Shown one piece after another: positions 40,929-53,060 of a stretch of 64,000 bases of DNA (the first letter of the stretch is position 1; each line of letters begins with the position of its first letter). This DNA is from Thermomonas brevis (GTDB lineage Bacteria > Pseudomonadota > Gammaproteobacteria > Xanthomonadales > Xanthomonadaceae), in contig NZ_CP060711.1 in NCBI RefSeq assembly GCF_014395425.1, forward strand, positions 2,480,001 through 2,544,000, written 5' to 3'. Under the pieces are notes generated by a model that saw only the letters and a program-made list of their open reading frames with translations, did no database searches and was not told where the DNA came from. The position numbers were made by a program, and so were the translations under genes.

Positions 40929-41890
<962 letters not shown>

Positions 41891-41964
41891 CTGCGCATCC
41901 GTGGGTGGGTGCGGGGATGGTAGCAGGCGGCGGAGCGGGCCCATCCGCGGCGGTATCGCGGCGC

Positions 41965-41993
41965 TTGACACATCGGGCGCAGGCTTGGATAAA
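41965..41993 (+). promoter_or_regulatory. Predicted sigma-70 promoter of the Pil-Chp operon
   Basis: A perfect -35, TTGACA (41965-41970), is followed by a 17-base spacer and GATAAA (41988-41993, four of six matches). It leads to a leader of about 50 bases before pilG, which has its own AAGGGGA ribosome site. Confidence 0.65.
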
Positions 41994-42047
41994 GACAGTC
42001 CGCAACGCGCGAAGACGCGGCGGTTGGCAATCGCGCAAGGGGATTAC

Positions 42048-42449
42048 ATGGCGCAGCAGGACGGTACCGACCTCGACCTCAGGGGTCTGAGGGTGATGGT
42101 CATCGACGATTCCAGGACGATCCGCCGCACGGCGGAGACGCTGCTCGTGCGCGAGGGCTGCGAAGTCGTCACCGCGACCGACGGGTTCGAGGCGCTGTCG
42201 AAGATCGCCGACCACAACCCGCAGATCGTGTTCGTGGACATCATGATGCCGCGTCTGGACGGCTATCAGACCTGCGCGTTGATCAAGAACAACCAGACCT
42301 TCAAAAGTGTGCCGGTGATCATGCTTTCGTCGAAGGACGGTTTGTTCGACAAGGCGCGAGGCCGTATCGTCGGCTCCGAGCAATACCTGACCAAGCCGTT
42401 CACGCGGGAAGAACTGCTTGGCGCCATCCGCACGTACGTCAACGCCTGA
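42048..42449 (+). CDS. pilG: Twitching motility response regulator PilG
   Basis: This single-domain CheY-like receiver has 133 residues: VMVIDDSRTIRRTAE, the phosphoacceptor Asp in IVFVDIMMPRLDGYQ, then IMLSSKDGLFDKARG and the Lys in YLTKPF. In Pseudomonas PilG is phosphorylated by ChpA and promotes pilus extension through PilB and cAMP. Here it heads the operon pilG-pilH-pilI-pilJ-chpA-chpB-chpC. Confidence 0.95.
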   Translation: MAQQDGTDLDLRGLRVMVIDDSRTIRRTAETLLVREGCEVVTATDGFEALSKIADHNPQIVFVDIMMPRLDGYQTCALIKNNQTFKSVPVIMLSSKDGLFDKARGRIVGSEQYLTKPFTREELLGAIRTYVNA

Positions 42450-42466: not shown

Positions 42467-42832
42467 ATGGCACGCATTCTGCTGATCGAGGATTCTCCGA
42501 CCGAGGCCGCGGTCATGGTCCAGTTGCTGGAACGCAACGGCCACCAGGTCACCACCGCCGGCAGCGCCGAGGACGGCATCGCCAGCTGCAAGCGCGACAA
42601 GCCGGACCTGGTCCTGATGGACATCATCCTGCCCGGCATGAACGGCTTCCAGGCCACCCGCGCGCTGACCCGCGACGCCGAGACCAGCCACATCCCGGTC
42701 ATCATCGTCAGCACCAAGGGGCAGGAGACCGACCGCGTCTGGGGCATGCGCCAGGGCGCGCGGGACTACATCGCCAAGCCGCCGCGCGAGAACGAGCTGA
42801 TCGCGCGCATCGACGCGCTGACCGGACGCTGA
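42467..42832 (+). CDS. pilH: Twitching motility response regulator PilH
   Basis: This is a 121-residue stand-alone receiver: ILLIEDSPTEAAVM, the Asp in LVLMDIILPGMNGFQ, VSTKGQETDRVWGMRQGA and YIAKPP. PilH is the second CheY of the system, thought to act as a phosphate sink or in retraction. It is 17 bases after pilG, with a GGGGAAGGG ribosome site. Confidence 0.95.
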   Translation: MARILLIEDSPTEAAVMVQLLERNGHQVTTAGSAEDGIASCKRDKPDLVLMDIILPGMNGFQATRALTRDAETSHIPVIIVSTKGQETDRVWGMRQGARDYIAKPPRENELIARIDALTGR

Positions 42833-42836
42833 CGCG

Positions 42837-43595
42837 ATGAGCAAGCGCGGCAAGCACAAGCACAAGTTCCGGCAGCAGGCGGCGTCGGCGCCGGTGCAGG
42901 GCACCGCCGTGGCCGAGGTCGTGGCCGACGACGCGGCATCCGTTGAATTCGGGGAAGCGGACGACGCGGCCGAAGCGGACGTCGTGGCGGCCGAACCGCA
43001 GCCGGCGGCAACGCCGGCCGACGACGCGCCGGCCGCCCGCGCCTACGCGCCGCTGGCGGGCGAACAGCGCTCGCCGTTCCTGGTCCTGGCCGACTACGAA
43101 CAGCGCAGCCTGGCTCACGTCGCCGGCCTGCCGGAGCAGCTGGACGCGCCCGGCCTGTGGCGCGGCGTGGCCTACCGCGTGGGCGCGCACCGGCTGGCGT
43201 CCGGCTTCGACGAGGTGGTCGAAATCCTGCCGATGCCGGCGCTGACGCCGGTGCCCGGCGCGCTGGCGTGGATGCTCGGCGTCGCCAACATCCGCGGCGC
43301 GCTGCTGCCGGTGGTCGACCTCAAGCAGTTCCTGGAAGGCGAGCGCACCGTGCTGCACGAGCGCCAGCGCGTGCTGGTGGTGCGCCAGCCGGGCGGCGAC
43401 GTCGCCGTCACCATCGACGAACTCTACGGCCAGCGCAGCTTCGTCGAGGAGCACGGCATCGACGCCGACGCCGTGGCCGACGGGCGCTACGCGCACTTCG
43501 TCGATCGCGCCTACCGCATGAACGGGCAGGACTGGGGCGTGTTCAGCCTCGAACGCCTCGCCCGTACCCCCGAATTCCGCCAAGCCGCCGCGTAA
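42837..43595 (+). CDS. pilI: CheW-like adaptor PilI with N-terminal extension
   Basis: This 252-residue adaptor couples the receptor PilJ to the kinase ChpA. The CheW domain covers about residues 105-250: [33 protein letters not shown] and [22 protein letters not shown]. About 75 extra N-terminal residues are Lys/His-rich at first ([14 protein letters not shown]), then Ala/Glu/Asp-rich. This tail is not needed for a CheW fold. It follows pilH by four bases. Confidence 0.92.
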
Positions 43596-43629: not shown

Positions 43630-45645
43630 ATGAGCAATTTGATGGATTCCGCCGCCGGCAAGGGCCGCAATCTCAGCACCAACTTCTGGATCTGGTTGCT
43701 GATCGGCTCGCTGGTCGTGTTCGCCGGCAATACCCTGTATGCCACCACCAAGGCCTCGCGCCTCGGCGGCGCGAGCACCGCGGCCTCCCGCCTGCAGCTG
43801 AACTCGCAGCGCTTGGCCAACCAGGGCCGCGAGGCCATCGACGGCAACGTGCAGGCGTTCGAATCGTTCAAGGCCACCAAGGGCGAGATCGACGCCGACA
43901 TCAAGTGGCTCAACGACCGCTTCGGCGACTCCGCCGACGTGGCCGCGCCGATCCGCACGGTGACCGAAACCTGGACCCCGCTGACCACCCGCGCCGACGA
44001 GGTGCTGGGTTCGCAGCAGGCGGTGCTGGCGCTGTCCGGCCGCGCCGACAGCTTCACCGCCAAGGTGCCGCAGCTGCAGGCGCAGCTGTACGAAGTGCTG
44101 CGCGGCCTGGTCTCGGGCGGCGCGAACTCCGCGCAGGTGAGCGCGGCGCTGCAGCAGGCCAACATCAGCTCGCGCATGGCGCAGCGCATCGCCGAGCTGC
44201 GCGCCGGCGGCGACGGCGCGCAGGTCGCGGCCAACGCGCTTGGCCGCGACGCGGCGGTGTTCGACCGGCAGATGAACGCGCTGATCAACGGCAGCGGCGA
44301 CATCGCCAAGGTCAGCGCGGCCGGCGCCACCGGCCCGCTCACCCAGGCCAACGTGCTCTGGCAGGGCATGAAGAAGGACCTCGACGCGATCGTCGGCGAC
44401 TCGCGCAAGCTGATCGGCGCGCAGGCCTCGGCGTCCGCGCTGGCGACCGGTTCCGACAAACTGCTGGGCGACAGCGAAAGCCTGTTCGCCGCGTTCACCT
44501 CGTTCGGCTCGCTGAAGGACACCAGCATCATCGGCGGCGTCTGGGTCAGCATCCTGTCCGGCGCGCTGGCGCTGTTCTCGATCGTCGGCCTGCTGTGGGC
44601 CCTGAACCGCGCGCAGCGCATCCGCTACCAGACCACCAAGGAACTGAACGACCGCAACCAGGAGGCGATCATGCGCCTGCTGGACGAAATGGGTTCGCTC
44701 GCGGAAGGCGACCTGACCGTGAAGGCGACCGTGACCGAGGACATGACCGGCGCGATCGCCGACTCGATCAACTTCGCCGTGGAACAGCTGCGCACCCTGG
44801 TGACCACCATCAACGACACCTCGGTGCAGGTCTCGGCCAGCGCGCAGGAAACCCAGGCGACCGCCATGCACCTGGCCGACGCCGCCGAGCACCAGGCGCA
44901 GGAGATCAACTCCGCCACCGACCGCATCAACGAGATCGCCTCCAGCATTAATCAGGTGTCGCGCAACTCCGCCGACTCCGCCGAGGTGGCGCGCCGTTCG
45001 GTGCAGATCGCGACGAACGGTGCGGGCGTGGTGCGCCAGACGATCGCCGGCATGGACAGCATCCGCGACCAGATCCAAGAAACCTCGAAGCGCATCAAGC
45101 GCCTGGGCGAGTCCTCGCAGGAAATCGGCTCGATCGTGGAACTGATCAACGACATTTCCGAACAGACCAACATCCTGGCGCTGAACGCGGCCATCCAGGC
45201 GGCCTCCGCCGGTGAAGCGGGCCGCGGCTTCGCGGTGGTGGCGGACGAAGTGCAGCGACTCGCGGAACGCAGCTCCAGCGCGACCAAGCGCATCGAATCG
45301 CTGGTCCAGACCATTCAGGCCGATACCAACGAAGCGGTGTCGTCGATGGAACAGACGACTTCCGAAGTGGTCGCGGGCGCGCGCCTCGCCGAGGACGCGG
45401 GTACCGCGCTGGGCGAGATCGAAAAGGTGTCGTCCGACCTGTCGGGCCTGATTGAAGGCATCTCGGTGGCGGCGCAGGAGCAGTCCAACGCGGCCTCCAA
45501 CATCACCCAGACCATGAACACCATCCAGTCGATCACCGCGCAGACCTCGCAGGGCGCCAGCCAGACCGCCGAGTCGATCGGTAATCTGGCCCAGCTCGCC
45601 GCCGACCTGCGCCGTTCGGTCGCCGACTTCAAGCTGCCCGCCTGA
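43630..45645 (+). CDS. pilJ: Type IV pilus methyl-accepting chemoreceptor PilJ
   Basis: This is a 671-residue receptor with two membrane helices ([19 protein letters not shown] near residue 20, [22 protein letters not shown] near residue 305) around a periplasmic PilJ-type four-helix region. A HAMP domain follows, then a long signalling coiled coil with the conserved hairpin tip ([20 protein letters not shown]) and [16 protein letters not shown]. In Pseudomonas PilJ reports pilus retraction or surface contact. pilK, the methyltransferase gene that follows pilJ in Pseudomonas, is absent. The next 79 bases hold no gene. Confidence 0.95.
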
Positions 45646-45724
45646 GCCGGACTGACACAGGGATCGGGATGAACAGCAGCCACCAGGCCAGCATCGCCTC
45701 GCCGGGTCTTGTCGGAGCCACGGC

Positions 45725-48700
45725 ATGACCACGGCGCTGCGGGATGCCATCGACCACACCGCGCTCGGCTGGGTGAAGCCGGAGATCGACGAGACTCTGC
45801 GCCAGGCGCGGATCGAGCTCGAAGCCTTCGCCGAAGCGCCGGACGACGCTTCGCCCATGGCCACCTGCATGGGCCATCTGCACCAGGTGCAGGGCACCCT
45901 GCGCATGCTCGAACTGCAGGCCCCGGCGATGGTGGCCGGCGAGATGGAGCAGCTGGCCGAAGCGCTGCGCGACGGCGCCACCGCCGATCGCGACGAGGCG
46001 CTGGCCGTGCTGATGCGCGGCGTGGTGCAGCTGCCGGACTATCTGGAACGCCTGCAAGGCGGCCACCGCGACATCCCGATCGTGCTGCTGCCGCTGATCA
46101 ACGAGCTGCGCGCGGCGCATGGCGCGGCAGCGCTGGGGCAGGATGCGCTGCCCAGCCTGCTGGACGCGCCCACCGAGGCCGAACTGGAACACGCGCGCGG
46201 CAGCCTGGCCGGGCGCAACCGCGCGCTGCTGGACACCGTGTCCGCGGCGATCAAGGAAGACCTGCTGAAGGTCAAGGACGCGCTCGACCTGCACCTGCGC
46301 GGCAGCCGCGACAACGTGCAGGAGCTGCAGCCGCAGGCCGAAGCGCTGGACCGCATCGGCGACACCCTCGGCATGCTGGGCCTCGAAAGCGCGCGCGCGG
46401 TGGTGCAGGAACAGCGCAAGATCGTGCACGGCATCGCCAGCGGCGCCCGTCCTCCGAACGAGAGCGACCTGCTCGACGTGGCCGGCGCGCTGCTCTACAT
46501 CGACCATTCGCTGGACGACCAGGTCGCGCAGCTCGGCAGCGCCGCCAGCGCGGACGAGGCCGGCGGCCTGCTGGCGCAGGAATCGCGCAAGGTGATGGGT
46601 GCGCTGACCCGCGCCGCGGTCAGCAACTTCGCCGAAGTGCGCAACGCCTTCGTCGCCTTCGTCGAAACCGACTGGGACCACGCCGCGCTGGAATCGGTGC
46701 CGCGCCTGCTGGGCGAAGTCGCCGGCGCGATGCGCATCCTCGAACGCCCCGAACCGGCCGACTACCTGGAAGCGCTGCGGCGCTACAGCCAGGACGAACT
46801 GGTCTCGCGCAGGCAGGTGCCGGGCGGCCGCCAGCTGGACACGCTGGCCGACGCGCTGGCGAGCATGGAGTACTTCCTGGAGTCCATGCACGACCCGCAC
46901 GGGCAGCGCCTGGATCTGCTGGAAAAAACCCGCGCCAGCCTGGAAGCGCTGCGTTACTGGCCGCTGCCGGAGGCCCGCGCCATCGAACCGGAAGCGCCGG
47001 CCGTGGCGGAGCCGGCGGTCGAACATGTCGAAGAAGCCGCGGCGGACGCCGTGGTCGAAACCGTCGTCGCCGAGGAAGAAGCGCCCGCAGTCGAAGCCGC
47101 GCCTGTGACCGCACAAGTGGCGGTGGGCGGCGGTGCCGCGCTGGCCGTCGGCTTCGAATCGGCCGGCGACGAAATCGACGACGAGATCCGCGAGATCTTC
47201 CTGGAGGAATTCCAGGACGAGATCGGCAACCTCGACACCCTGCTGCCCGCCTGGAAGCTGGCGCCCGACGACGCCGAAACGCTGCGTCCGATCCGGCGCG
47301 TGTTCCACACCCTGAAGGGCAGCGGCCGGCTGGTCGGCGCCAAGGTGCTGGGCGAGTTCGCCTGGCACGTCGAGAACATGCTCAATCGCGTGCTCGACGG
47401 TTCGCGTCCGGCCAGCCACGCGGTGGTGGCGTTCGTCGGCCAGGCCCGCGAATCGCTGCCGCAGCTGCACGCCGCGCTGCGCGGTGAGGGCAGCGTCGGC
47501 ATCGACATCCACGCGATGGAAGCCGTGGCCGACCGCCTGGCGGCCGGCGAGGACGTGCTGCTGACCGCGGCGCCGATGGCGCAGCCTGCGGCCCCGCACG
47601 AAGAAGCGGCGGCGCCCGATGTTGCTGTCGCCGCCGAACCCGAAGCCGCCGCGGAAACGCAGGCGGTCTCGGTGGATCCGGTGCTGCTGGAAATCCTGGG
47701 CACCGAAGTCGGCGGCCACTTGGTCACGGTCGACGCCTGGCTGGCGCAGGCCCGCGCGGGCGATGCCGCGGCCAGCGATGCGCTGGTGCGCGCCATCCAC
47801 ACCCTCAACGGCGCGTTCGCGATGACGGAAGTGCCGTCGGTGACCGCGTTCACCGCGCCGGCCGAAGGCTACGTCAAGCGGCTGCTGGCCGCCCGCGCGC
47901 AGGCCGATGCCGACGGCGTCGCAGCGCTGGGCGAAGTCGCCGAGGCGGTGCGCGCCTCCACCCTGGCGCTGCAGACCACGCCGGCGCAGGTGCCCGCCTT
48001 CGCCGCGCTGGCGGCGCGGATGGCCGCGCTGCGCGACGCGCTGCCGGAAGCGAACCTGCCGTTCATCGACACCGCACCTGCCGGCAACGAGGACGCGGAC
48101 GCCGCGCGCGTCGCCGCCGAGCAGGCGGAAGCGCAGCGCCTGGCGGCCGAAGCAGCCGCACGCGCCGAAGCCGAACGCGTTGCTGCGGAGGAAGCCGAAG
48201 CCGCGCGCCTGGCTGCCGAGCAGGCGGAAGCGGAACGCCTTGCGGCCGAAGCGGCTGCGCGCGCCGAAGCCGAACGTCTCGCCGCGGAAGAAGCGGAGGC
48301 CGCGCGTCTGGCGGCCGAGGAGGCCGCGCGCGTCGAAGCCGAGCGCCTTGCCGCGGAAGAAGCCGCGCGCCAGGAGGCCGAACGCCTCGCCGCCGAGGCG
48401 GAAGCCGAGCGTCTGGCGCAGGAAGAAGCGGCCCGCGTCGAGGCCGAGCGTCTCGCCGCCGAGCAGGCCGAAGCCGAACGCCTTGCGGCGGAACAGGCCG
48501 AGGCCGCGCGCCTTGCCGCCGAGGAAGCGGAGCGTCTCGAAGTCGAACGCCTCGCGGCGGAAGAAGCCGAAATCGCCCGTCGCGTCGCCGAGCAGGCGGA
48601 GGTCATGCGCCTCGAAGCCGAGCGGGCGGTCGCCGAGGAAACCGAACGCCTCGAAGCCGCGCGTCTGGCGGCGGAAAGCGCCGAACACCAGGAGGCCGAG

Positions 48701-51607
48701 CGCCTCGCGGCCGAAGCGGCTGCGCGCGCCGAAGCCGAACGCCTTGCGGCGGAAGAAGCGGAAGCCGCGCGGCTTGCGGCGGAGCAGGCGGAAACCGAAC
48801 GCCTGGCGGCCGAAGAGGCCGCACGCCTCGAAGCCGAGCGGATCGCCGCGGAACAGGCCGAGGCCGCGCGTCTCGCTGCCGAACAAGCGGAAGCCGAGCG
48901 CCTGGCGGCCGAAGAAGCCGCACGCCTCGACGCCGAGCGGATCGCCGCGGAAGAAGCCGAAGCGGCGCGTCTTGCCGCCGAACAGCAGGCGGAAGCCGAA
49001 CGCCTGGCGGCCGAAGAAGCCGCACGCCGCGAAGCGGAGCGCCAGGAAGCCGAACGCATCGCCGCCGCCCGCGCCGAGGCCGAGCGCCAGGAAGCCGAAC
49101 GCGCGGCGGTCCGCCGTGCGGAAGCCGAGCGCGCCGAAGCCGAGCGTCGCGCCGCCGAGGCCGCCGCCGCCGCGCAGGCGCGCGAGCAGGCCGCGCTGGC
49201 GGCGCTGCAGTCGGCGGCCAGCGCCGCGGAAGACCCGGACGAGCCGCTGGACACCAGCGAGCTGGACCTGGAGCTGGTGGACATCTTCGTCGAGGAGGCC
49301 GGCGACCTGCTCGACCACTCCGACGGCCTGCTGGCCAAGCTGCGCGACACGCCGGACGACAACGAACTGGTGAGCGGCTTGCAGCGCGACCTGCACACGC
49401 TCAAGGGCGGCGCGCGCATGGCCGGCATGATGCCAGCCGGCGAGCTGGGCCACGCCATGGAGTCGCTGCTGGAAGCGGTGGCCGCGCAGAAGACCGAATT
49501 CGGCGCCGACGGCGTGCCGCTGCTGGAACGCGGCTTCGACCGGCTGCACGGCATGATCACCCGCATCGCTGCACGCCGCGCGATCGGCATGCCGGCGGGT
49601 CTGATCGAAGAGTTCAGCGCCCGCGCCGAAGGCCGCGCGCCCGCGGTGGAGCAGGCGGCGGAACAGGCCGCCACGCCCGCGCCGCGCGCCGTACCCGCGA
49701 AAAAGCCCGAGCTCAAGCCGCTGTCCGCGCCGATGGGCCAGGACGGGTTCGGCGAGGACGAGGACATCGGCGTGCGCGCGCCGCAGGAACAGGTACGCAT
49801 CCGCGCCGACCTGCTCGATCGGCTGGTGAACTACGCGGGCGAAGTCGCCATCTACCGCGCCCGCCTGGAACAGCAGCTGGCCGCGTTCCGCAGCACCGCG
49901 CAGGAAATGGAGCAGACCAACCTGCGCCTGCGCGACCAGCTGCGCCGCCTCGATTCGGAAACCGAAGCGCAGATCATCGCCCGCTTCCAGCGCGAGAACG
50001 ACACCGCCAACGAAGCCTTCGACCCGCTGGAGCTCGACCGCTTCAGCACCCTGCAGCAGCTCTCCCGCGCGCTGGCCGAATCGGCCGCCGACTTGCAGAG
50101 CCTGCACGGGTCGATGGACGATCTGACCCGCCAGTACGAGACGCTGCTGACCCAGCAGTCGCGCGTCAGCTCCGAGCTGCAGGAAGGCCTCATGCGCACG
50201 CGCATGCTGCCGTTCGACTCGCTGGTGCCGCGTCTGCGCCGCGTGATCCGCCAGGCCGCCGGCGAAACCGGCAAGCAGGCGCAGCTCAAGCTGGAAGGCG
50301 CGCAGGGCGAACTCGACCGCAACGTGCTGGAGCGCATGACCGCGCCGCTGGAGCACATGCTCCGCAACGCCATCGCGCACGGCCTGGAAACGCCGGACGC
50401 GCGCCGCGCCGCCGGCAAGCCGGAGGAAGGCAGCATCCGCGTGGTGGTGCGCCGCGAAGGCTCGGAAGTCGTGCTGCAGATCGCCGACGACGGCGCCGGC
50501 CTCAACCGCGACGCGATCCGCGCGCGCGGCATCGACCGCGGCCTGATCAAGGCGGACGCGACGCTGAGCGACGCCGAGCTCGACCAGCTGATCATGCAGC
50601 CGGGCTTCTCCACCGCCGAAACCGTCAGCCGCCTGGCCGGCCGCGGCGTCGGCATGGACGTGGTGGCGAGCGAAGTGCGCCAGCTCGGCGGCACCATCGA
50701 CATCGCCTCGCGCCCCGGCCAGGGCACCACCTTCACCCTGCGCCTGCCGCAGACGCTGGCGGTGACGCAGGCGGTGTTCGTCAAGATCGGCGAGACCGAA
50801 TACGCGGTGCCGATCGCCTCGGTGCGCGGCGTGGGCCGCATCGCCCGCGAGGACATGGCCAAGGCCGGCGCGGGCTACCGCTACGGCGGCGAGGACTACG
50901 CGCTGCACGACCTCGGCGCGCTGGTCGGCGCCGCCCCGGCGAAGGCGGAAGGGCATCTGCAGATGCCGCTGCTGCTGGTCGGTTCCGGCGAGCTGCGCGC
51001 GGCGGTGGCGATCGACCAGGTGGTCGGCAGCCGCGAAATCGTGGTCAAGACCGGCGGCCCGCAGCTGGCGTCGGTGCCGGGCATCTTCGGCGCCACCATC
51101 ATGGGCGACGGCCGCGTGGTGGTGATCCTCGACGTCGCGCCGCTGGTGCGCCGCCAGGCGGCCGCCGCGCAGGTCGACGAGGGCGAGGTCCACGTGCCGG
51201 GCGCGCAGCGGAAGGTGCCGCTGGTCATGGTGGTGGACGACTCCGTCACCATGCGCAAGGTCACCGGCCGCGTGCTGGAGCGCCACAGCTTCGAGGTGGC
51301 GACCGCGAAGGACGGCCTCGACGCGCTGGAGCGCATGGCCGACTTCGTGCCCGATCTGATGCTGCTCGACATCGAAATGCCGCGCATGGACGGCTACGAG
51401 CTGGCGACCGCGATGAAGGCCGACCCGCGCCTGCGCAACGTGCCGATCGTGATGATCACCTCGCGCACCGGCGACAAGCACCGCCAGCGCGCCTTCGAGA
51501 TCGGCGTCGAGCGTTACCTCGGCAAGCCGTACCAGGAAGTCGAGCTGATGCGGAACGTGTTCGAGCTGTTGGGGCTGGAGCACGCGGGCGACGGAACCCT
51601 GCAATGA
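45725..51607 (+). CDS. chpA: Pil-Chp hybrid histidine kinase ChpA (PilL-type), with long Ala/Glu repeat
   Basis: This CheA-type kinase of 1960 residues phosphorylates PilG and PilH. HPt-like sites are H53 (HQVQGTLRM, degenerate), H528 (HTLKGSGR), H692 (HTLNGAFAM, degenerate) and H1224 ([11 protein letters not shown]). Residues about 790-1165 are an almost pure Ala/Glu/Arg/Leu repeat ([18 protein letters not shown]), predicted to be a long helix or coiled coil. A dimerisation region follows, then the ATPase (N-box [13 protein letters not shown]2 GRGVGMDVV), a CheW domain and a C-terminal receiver with phosphoacceptor D1882 ([14 protein letters not shown]). Pseudomonas ChpA has more HPt sites. 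The stop overlaps chpB. Confidence 0.95.
48095..49215 (+). repeat. Degenerate tandem repeat coding for AERLAAEEA units within chpA
   Basis: Roughly 370 codons of repeated blocks GAAGCCGAACGCCTGGCGGC and variants occur in units of about 10-15 codons. They code almost only for Ala, Glu, Arg, Leu and Gln. Blocks recur nearly unchanged at several positions, suggesting expansion by duplication. Confidence 0.9.
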
Positions 51608-52581
51608 GCGCCAGGCGCGTGGTGGTGCTGGCGCGCGCGGGAGCCGCGTGCGACCGCACCCGGGCGGCGGTGCAGCAGGCGGGTGCGGAACTGGCGGCGG
51701 TGCTGGACCCGACCGCCGTAGGCGAGGAGGACGTTCGCGTGGCCGCGCCCGACGCCGTGCTGGTGGTGCTCGACCCGGTGGCCGAGACCGCGCTGGAGAA
51801 ATTCGACGGCGTGCTGGCCGATCCGGCGCTGGCGGTGATGTACGACGACGCCGAGGTGGCGGCCAGACGCGACGGCTGGGAAGCGGCGCGCTGGGCGCGG
51901 CACCTGGCGGCCAAGCTGCACGGGCACCAGGACGTGCTGCCGGCGATGCCGGGCGGCGACGCCGGGCGTGGTTTCGCGCAGGAGATGGAAGACCTGACGT
52001 TGCAGGTGGCGGCGATGCCGCCGGTAGCGCAACAGGCCAAGGCGCCGACAGCGGCGCCCGCGAACGGCGCGGTGGTGGTCGCGGCCGGCGTCGGCGGCCC
52101 CGACGCGGTGCGCCAGCTGCTGGGCGAACTGCCGGAGGCGTTCCCGCGCCCGGTGCTGCTGCGCCAGCGCATCGAAGGCGGGCAGTACGACCGGCTGGTG
52201 CGGCAGATGCAGCGCGCTTCGCGCATGCGGGTGATGCTGGCGCAGGCCGGCGAGCCGCTGCACGGCGGCACCGTGTACGTGATGCCCGACGGGCTCGACG
52301 TCGGCGAAGCGCCGGCCGGCCTGCACTTCGTGGCCACCGCCGGGGAGCCCGGCTTCGCCGCCCTGCGCGCCGCCGACAGCGCCATGCTGCTGCTCAGCGG
52401 CGCGCCGCCCGCGCTGGTGGACGTGGCGCTGGCGATGCGCTGGGCCGGCGGCCTGGCGCTGGGCCAGGCCGCGGAGAACTGTTTCGATCCCGCCGCCAGC
52501 AATGCGCTGGTGGCGCGCGGCGGCGAGGCGAGCAGCCTCGCCGGGATGTCCCGACAATTGCTGCAACGCTGGTCTGCCTGA
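51604..52581 (+). CDS. chpB: Degenerate CheB-like protein ChpB lacking catalytic residues
   Basis: This protein has 325 residues. The N-terminal part is not a clear receiver. The C-terminal half aligns to the CheB methylesterase domain: [20 protein letters not shown] matches the GASTGG strand-loop, then [28 protein letters not shown] and GQAAENC. The catalytic Ser of GASxGG is Gly (AAGVGG), the His of QHM is Arg (RQRI), and the GMGxDG loop with the catalytic Asp is replaced (SGAPPALV). It should be inactive as a methylesterase and may now be a structural or regulatory part. It overlaps chpA by four bases. The name is given by homology and position. Confidence 0.8.
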
Positions 52582-52589
52582 GGTCCTCC

Positions 52590-53060
52590 ATGTCCGACAT
52601 CGCATACATCATCCGCGGCGTGCTCATCCAGGTGGCCGATGCGCGCCTGCTGCTGCCCAACGCGACCATTGCCGAAGTGCTGTCCTACGCCACGCCCGAG
52701 CCGCTGGCGGATGCGCCGGACTGGCTGTTGGGCCGGATCCGCTGGCGCGGCTGGCAGCTGCCGCTGATGTCGTTCTCGCGCTTCGCCGGCATCGCCGAGG
52801 AAGAGGGTGGGCTGGGCAGCAAGGTGATCGTGCTCAAGGCGCTGGGCGGCAACGCGCGCCAACCCTATTTCGCGATGCTGACCCAGGGCTTCCCGCGGCT
52901 GGTGACGGTGACCGAATCCACGCTGGCGACGCTGGACGACGGCGGCGAACTGCCCGCCGGCGTGCTGGCGCGCGTGCGCCTCAACGAGAACGATGCGATG
53001 GTGCCCGACCTGGCGGCGCTGGAGCAGCGCCTGCACGCGGCGCTCGCCGCCGCCGCGTAA
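52590..53060 (+). CDS. chpC: CheW-like protein ChpC
   Basis: This 156-residue CheW-type adaptor, IAYIIRGVLIQVADARLLLP, has the inner strand LLGRIRWRGWQLPLMSF and ends in an Ala-rich helix. In Pseudomonas ChpC is the second adaptor of the Chp system, linking other receptors to ChpA. It is nine bases after chpB and closes the operon. Confidence 0.88.
   Translation: MSDIAYIIRGVLIQVADARLLLPNATIAEVLSYATPEPLADAPDWLLGRIRWRGWQLPLMSFSRFAGIAEEEGGLGSKVIVLKALGGNARQPYFAMLTQGFPRLVTVTESTLATLDDGGELPAGVLARVRLNENDAMVPDLAALEQRLHAALAAAA

Follow-up and report, generated by a model that had tools for sequence, protein, structure and literature searches.

A CheB-fold ChpB without its catalytic triad in the PilK-less Pil-Chp operon of Thermomonas brevis

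We analysed a stretch of 64,000 nucleotides (the window) from Thermomonas brevis, whose genome is assembled as a single 3.4 Mb contig. It carries a pil-chp operon of pilG, pilH, pilI, pilJ, chpA, chpB and chpC, all on the + strand. In Pseudomonas the gene order is pilG-H-I-J-K-chpA-B-C, PilK being a methyltransferase and ChpB a methylesterase; the likeness to the P. aeruginosa Pil-Chp system lies in this order around pilGHIJ-chpA-chpB-chpC. We found that T. brevis has no pilK, and that its ChpB has the fold of the methylesterase CheB but lacks the catalytic triad. Judging from the sequences of relatives, the loss of pilK and of the triad is one ancestral event of a whole clade that reaches beyond this genome and takes in Xanthomonas and Lysobacter besides Thermomonas. 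It seems likely that ChpB is a pseudoenzyme, a CheB without catalytic activity, that is kept as a non-enzymatic subunit of Pil-Chp, and it probably works now as a binding protein.

The active site of ChpB and the position of pilK

The gene is identified as the chpB of a Pil-Chp system by its place directly 3' of chpA in the pilGHIJ-chpA cluster. Its product shares the two-domain layout of CheB, with an N domain (residues 1-113), a linker and a C domain (residues 155-325). The catalytic-domain fold is also common to both: the Pfam family CheB_methylest (PF01339) matches residues 157-306 with 55.9 bits (cut-off 24), and a profile of 30 clade ChpB sequences matches the PDB CheB chains 3sft, 6ymz, 1chd and 1a2o. 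Unlike CheB, the protein lacks the catalytic triad, and its receiver-like but degenerate N domain scores without a Pfam receiver match. We take Ser, His and Asp to be the catalytic residues of CheB, and their positions in ChpB were read from aligned motifs. An alignment with the intact CheB encoded in this genome places Gly162 at the Ser position, Arg189 at the His position and Ala270 at the Asp position. An alternative triad was rejected because the C domain has no invariant His among 30 aligned clade members; the invariant His100 lies in the N domain and is present in PilK-bearing relatives too. These replacements would mean that ChpB has lost its hydrolytic activity.

The gap between pilJ and chpA is 79 bases and therefore leaves no room for pilK; no PilK remnant was found there in the window at a permissive threshold. 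A pilK remnant in the same interval of the order's PilK-less operons was also rejected (best E-value 1). A profile search of the T. brevis genome gave two CheR matches. The first adjoins CheD and an intact CheB, while the second is a CheR domain in a hybrid-kinase/CheB neighbourhood. On a PilK profile they scored 151 and 82 bits, against 410-453 for ten PilKs. Neither is PilK-like, so a PilK elsewhere in the genome was rejected as well, and the genome encodes no PilK that would complete the methylation system.

The first-pass annotation had proposed that pilK is gone, that ChpB has lost all three catalytic residues while keeping the CheB fold, and that chpB still overlaps chpA. These proposals are borne out by the gap and the genome search, by an alignment that no better alignment replaced so as to restore Ser, His or Asp, by the Pfam and PDB matches, and by an overlap of 4 bases between the chpB ATG and the chpA stop. 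The features of the operon are as follows.

41805..42449, + strand: pilG, receiver (Pfam match at residues 97-209 of the longest open reading frame (ORF); name from gene order); the true start probably lies further inside this ORF
42467..42832, + strand: pilH, receiver (Pfam)
42837..43595, + strand: pilI, CheW-like (Pfam)
43630..45645, + strand: pilJ, receptor (Pfam MCPsignal; methylation pairs predicted by alignment)
45646..45724, + strand: pilJ-chpA interval, the position of pilK in relatives (79 bases, without PilK remnant)
45725..51607, + strand: chpA/pilL, CheA-like kinase with Hpt domains, HATPase, CheW and receiver domains (Pfam)
51604..52581, + strand: chpB, 325 amino acids; degenerate receiver-like N domain, linker, CheB-fold C domain without catalytic triad
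52087..52089, + strand: chpB Gly162, catalytic Ser position of CheB (aligned column)
52168..52170, + strand: chpB Arg189, catalytic His position (aligned column)
52411..52413, + strand: chpB Ala270, catalytic Asp position (aligned column)
52590..53060, + strand: chpC, CheW-like (Pfam CheW, 55.7 bits)

Distribution of the two losses among relatives

We compared 141 operon stretches (the window, 51 from the family, 29 from the order and 60 from the class), 139 of which contained a PilJ ORF. A ChpB was called degenerate if it departed in any way from Ser, His and Asp at the three aligned columns, a definition whose strength is unequal among the groups. Among 92 operons, 30 had PilK and an intact ChpB, 56 had a degenerate ChpB and no PilK, six had an intact ChpB and no PilK, and none had PilK with a degenerate ChpB. 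The family accounts for five, 41 and none of the first three groups and the order for six, 15 and six; the class adds 19 operons with PilK and an intact ChpB. The family further included two operons with PilK whose contig ended before ChpB, and four with neither PilK nor ChpB, three being contig ends and one a true absence (L085, from genome G012). An ORF at the site of the missing chpB (L085:10032-10814) begins with apparent translated repeats, which resemble those of the repetitive extragenic palindrome or miniature inverted-repeat transposable element (REP/MITE) type. One class member (L104) was rejected as a case of PilK with degenerate ChpB because its ChpB frame is split into two ORFs, and it was excluded from the 92; another had PilK and no ChpB on a short contig. 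G040 (L074) was rejected as an intact ChpB without PilK, since PilK is present.

At the class level, joint loss of pilK and chpB is common (39 of 60 operons, L107-L163, some on short contigs), and only the window's order yielded cases of a ChpB that persists with its active site gone. Ralstonia solanacearum likewise has no pilK between pilJ and chpA, with 79 bp there, and lacks chpB and chpC altogether (PMC7056806), whereas the present operon retains chpB but not the active site of its product.

The Ser column reads Gly in all 121 clade sequences (106 distinct C domains), which comprise 41 fetched operons and the best 80 of 280 loci confirmed in a scan with a ChpB alignment. These scan loci come partly from the same genomes as the 51 family stretches and are biased to near relatives because they are the best 80. 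All 80 have Gly, and none showed a PilK ORF, although in 11 the sequence was too short for a PilJ ORF to be seen. Among the titles of the 80 are Xanthomonas cucurbitae, Pseudoxanthomonas, Lysobacter, Luteimonas and Vulcaniibacterium. By comparison, the column reads Ser in every PilK-bearing operon whose ChpB could be read (30 of 30). Thus the loss first noticed in a single protein is shared by its family orthologues. The order's 15 degenerate ChpBs are weaker evidence because ten of them still carry His and Asp, with Ser exchanged for Ala in five and for Thr in five, and a Thr might yet serve as the nucleophile. In L171 the Ser column falls in a gap; in L078 and L167 Ser is present, but both His and Asp are gone.

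In a PilJ tree the PilK-less family members form one clade of 45 rows (SH-aLRT, the Shimodaira-Hasegawa-like approximate likelihood ratio test, 97), and under a mixture model, with four partial or short rows excluded, a clade of 43 rows (99). The five family members outside this clade have PilK and an intact ChpB. A second clade (100) holds 13 degenerate rows of the f12 group, and L078 and L167 fall outside both. The tree requires three changes in the intact state and four in PilK; if these are read as losses, every triad loss sits in a PilK-less lineage.

The six operons that combine an intact ChpB with no PilK (L079, L080, L176, L177, L082 and L174) are genuine cases of PilK absence. Of the genomes concerned, three (G421, G452 and G488) have no CheR match, and in the other three (G404, G413 and G422) CheR scores 96-107 on the PilK profile, against at least 410 for PilKs. 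They look like an earlier stage in which pilK has been lost and ChpB has not yet decayed. As CheB is also a glutaminase (according to the molecule name of 6ymz), an intact ChpB without PilK could still deamidate PilJ, and these proteins are candidates for acting only as a PilJ glutamine deamidase.

The PilJ receptor and the remaining CheR proteins

In P. aeruginosa, PilJ methylation and directional motility require PilK and ChpB (PMC12632253), and three methylation pairs have been predicted in PilJ (PMC10896506). The system described here differs in having no PilK, a ChpB without Ser, His and Asp, and a PilJ without Glu in pair 3. The pairs predicted in the window are Q406/E407 (pair 1), E617/Q618 (pair 2) and Q633/S634 (pair 3). 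Of the 41 clade PilJs, 39 have QE at pair 1 and 40 have QQ or EQ at pair 2. Pair 3 is QE in only five of 41, and a Glu/Gln pair of any kind, including QQ, in 14; it is QE in all seven PilK-bearing family members and in 26 of 27 others of the order. The change in pair 3 is largely shared by descent. The alignments thus indicate a receptor that is eroded only in part, with pair 3 altered and pairs 1 and 2 retained.

This retention raises another explanation, that CheR and CheB of a separate che cluster still methylate and demethylate PilJ and have relieved ChpB of its job. The T. brevis CheR that adjoins CheD and a fully intact CheB could act in this way, as could be expected from the state of pairs 1 and 2, and such action is excluded only for relatives without a CheR match. 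We regard cross-talk of this kind as highly unlikely as an explanation. At an E-value of 0.001, the search gave no CheR match for 129 of 390 family genomes. The same is true of 14 of 25 genomes in the window's own genus, three of them single-contig (G225, G237 and G270), and each of these 14 does give a match to ChpB. A ChpB match is present in 388 of 395 family genomes, and six of the seven without one belong to the 129 that lack CheR. From lists compared by eye, 123 family genomes therefore have a ChpB-like match and no CheR match, although weak matches may be other CheBs. Fifteen of the fetched clade loci belong to genomes without a CheR match (matched by eye); pair 1 is still QE in every one of them, and pair 3 is QE in one. 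Pair 1 is thus retained there, for another reason, although the search revealed no CheR-family enzyme that could methylate it. In addition, Glu of pair 3 is lost in 36 of 41 clade PilJs, and the che-cluster CheR falls far below true PilKs on the PilK profile.

The first-pass annotation had also suggested that both halves of the methylation cycle are lost. This stands for the dedicated pair, as PilK is missing and the triad is gone, but not for the whole cycle, since receptor pairs 1 and 2 are kept and the che-cluster CheR and CheB could act. Within that cluster (L001/L003, about 3.33 Mb), CheD and a soluble receptor-like protein share the C-terminal hexapeptide GSVELF, perhaps a docking tail.

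Possible roles of ChpB

ChpB may serve as a scaffold or allosteric partner, a proposal that rests on the retention of the gene under purifying selection, on a motif conserved in the N domain and on a knockout described in the literature. The ratio of nonsynonymous to synonymous substitution rates (dN/dS) is 0.11-0.36 in the five own-genus pairs with the lowest dS. The N-domain motif, approximately GW(D/E)xARWxRHLAAK with small variations, occurs in the 26 order members listed, with and without PilK alike, and is absent from the four class members listed. The linker between the domains is highly variable, and total length ranges from 322 to 850 amino acids in the family, being shortest in the window's genus (L044-L100). 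The ChpB of P. aeruginosa is believed not to undergo phosphorylation (PMC12632253); here the corresponding N domain is receiver-like but degenerate. In Xylella fastidiosa, deletion of chpB caused a significant drop in twitching, with no change in natural competence (PMC9956873), in keeping with a functional protein.

Several findings weigh against our interpretation. Only Gly for Ser is fixed: among the 41 fetched clade ChpBs, His is kept in five and Asp in four, and L066 alone has both. An independent-pairs test had three pairs on supported branches, about two in the same direction and none in the opposite one (p 0.25-1); the association of PilK with ChpB is consistent, though unproven by this test. 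The distance ratio of the C domain to PilJ is 1.9-2.5 in the clade, above the 1.5-1.8 of PilK-bearing order members, though operons with an intact ChpB and no PilK also reach 1.7-2.9. In 13 divergent clade members the invariant C-domain columns number only 19, compared with 43 in 10 PilK-bearing homologues, which are slightly more similar among themselves; the C domain is thus constrained, but less so than in the enzyme. One sampled genus of the family (G012) has PilJ but no chpB between chpA and chpC. Lastly, the Xylella ChpB of the knockout lies outside the sequences compared.

Some of these points would suit a vestigial gene, in which ChpB has had no role since pilK was lost and decays slowly, temporarily preserved by its place in the operon. 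The faster evolution and fewer invariant columns of the C domain and the missing chpB of G012 favour this view, as do dN/dS values of 0.45-0.69 in 17 further own-genus pairs listed (by the Nei-Gojobori method, NG86, less reliable there) and the far more relaxed degenerate set in the order's other families (ratio 3.1-3.7). We consider it unlikely, because ChpB is found in nearly all family genomes, dN/dS is low in the closest pairs, Ser was replaced by one fixed residue, the GGP loop is invariant, and the Xylella knockout has a phenotype.

A new activity or ligand, with the GGPD loop, Cys293 and Asp295 binding a small molecule or performing other chemistry, seems to us very improbable. Gly162, Asp167, Cys293 and Asp295 are invariant in the 13 divergent clade members, and Asp295 is replaced by Val or Ile in the 10 PilK-bearing homologues. 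However, 13 of the 19 clade-invariant columns are also invariant in those homologues, one with a different residue (Gly for Ser), and just seven are newly invariant, for which reason a strong claim of new function was dropped. Asp167 is already D/E in the homologues, Cys293 is ancestral, and the C domain has no invariant His.

We therefore return to ChpB as a retained, non-enzymatic subunit and propose the following model. A clean deletion removed pilK in the ancestor of one large Xanthomonadaceae/Lysobacteraceae clade, as the comparison of relatives shows. PilJ would then be beyond cyclic methylation by a dedicated pair, and the ChpB active site would be free to decay; its residues are lost, and presumably its activity with them, but the fold and the reading frame have been preserved. 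ChpB would be retained because its conserved receiver-like N domain and folded C domain still bind partners, for instance PilJ, ChpA or polar PilG. A receptor locked in one state, its QE and QQ pairs frozen, would determine PilJ signalling, and ChpB would tune this signalling stoichiometrically instead of by methyl turnover. More tentatively, the dead methylesterase might be the clade's adaptation element. ChpB might bind the methylation helices of PilJ and read their conformation, or go to the leading pole with PilG, giving methylation-independent adaptation or polarity control.

The absence of pilK has been reported before: Lysobacter capsici AZ78 has pilGHIJchpABC without a pilK orthologue (PMC4960238), and in Xylella the genes are listed as pilGHIJL and chpBC, with 'pilk' nowhere in the main text (PMC9956873). 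The relevant passages on these related bacteria are silent on the ChpB active site. A search of open-licence PMC papers found no naming of the triad loss in titles or the starts of abstracts.

Some databases label the clade's ChpBs as putative protein-glutamate methylesterases, and models of twitching chemotaxis may transfer the P. aeruginosa methylation cycle to Xanthomonas, Xylella and Lysobacter. According to the sequences, the dedicated methylation cycle is absent from the Pil-Chp system of this clade. Because a third of the sampled family shows no CheR match, the clade offers a clean setting for two questions: which form of adaptation, if any, is needed for surface chemotaxis, and what a CheB fold does without catalysis.
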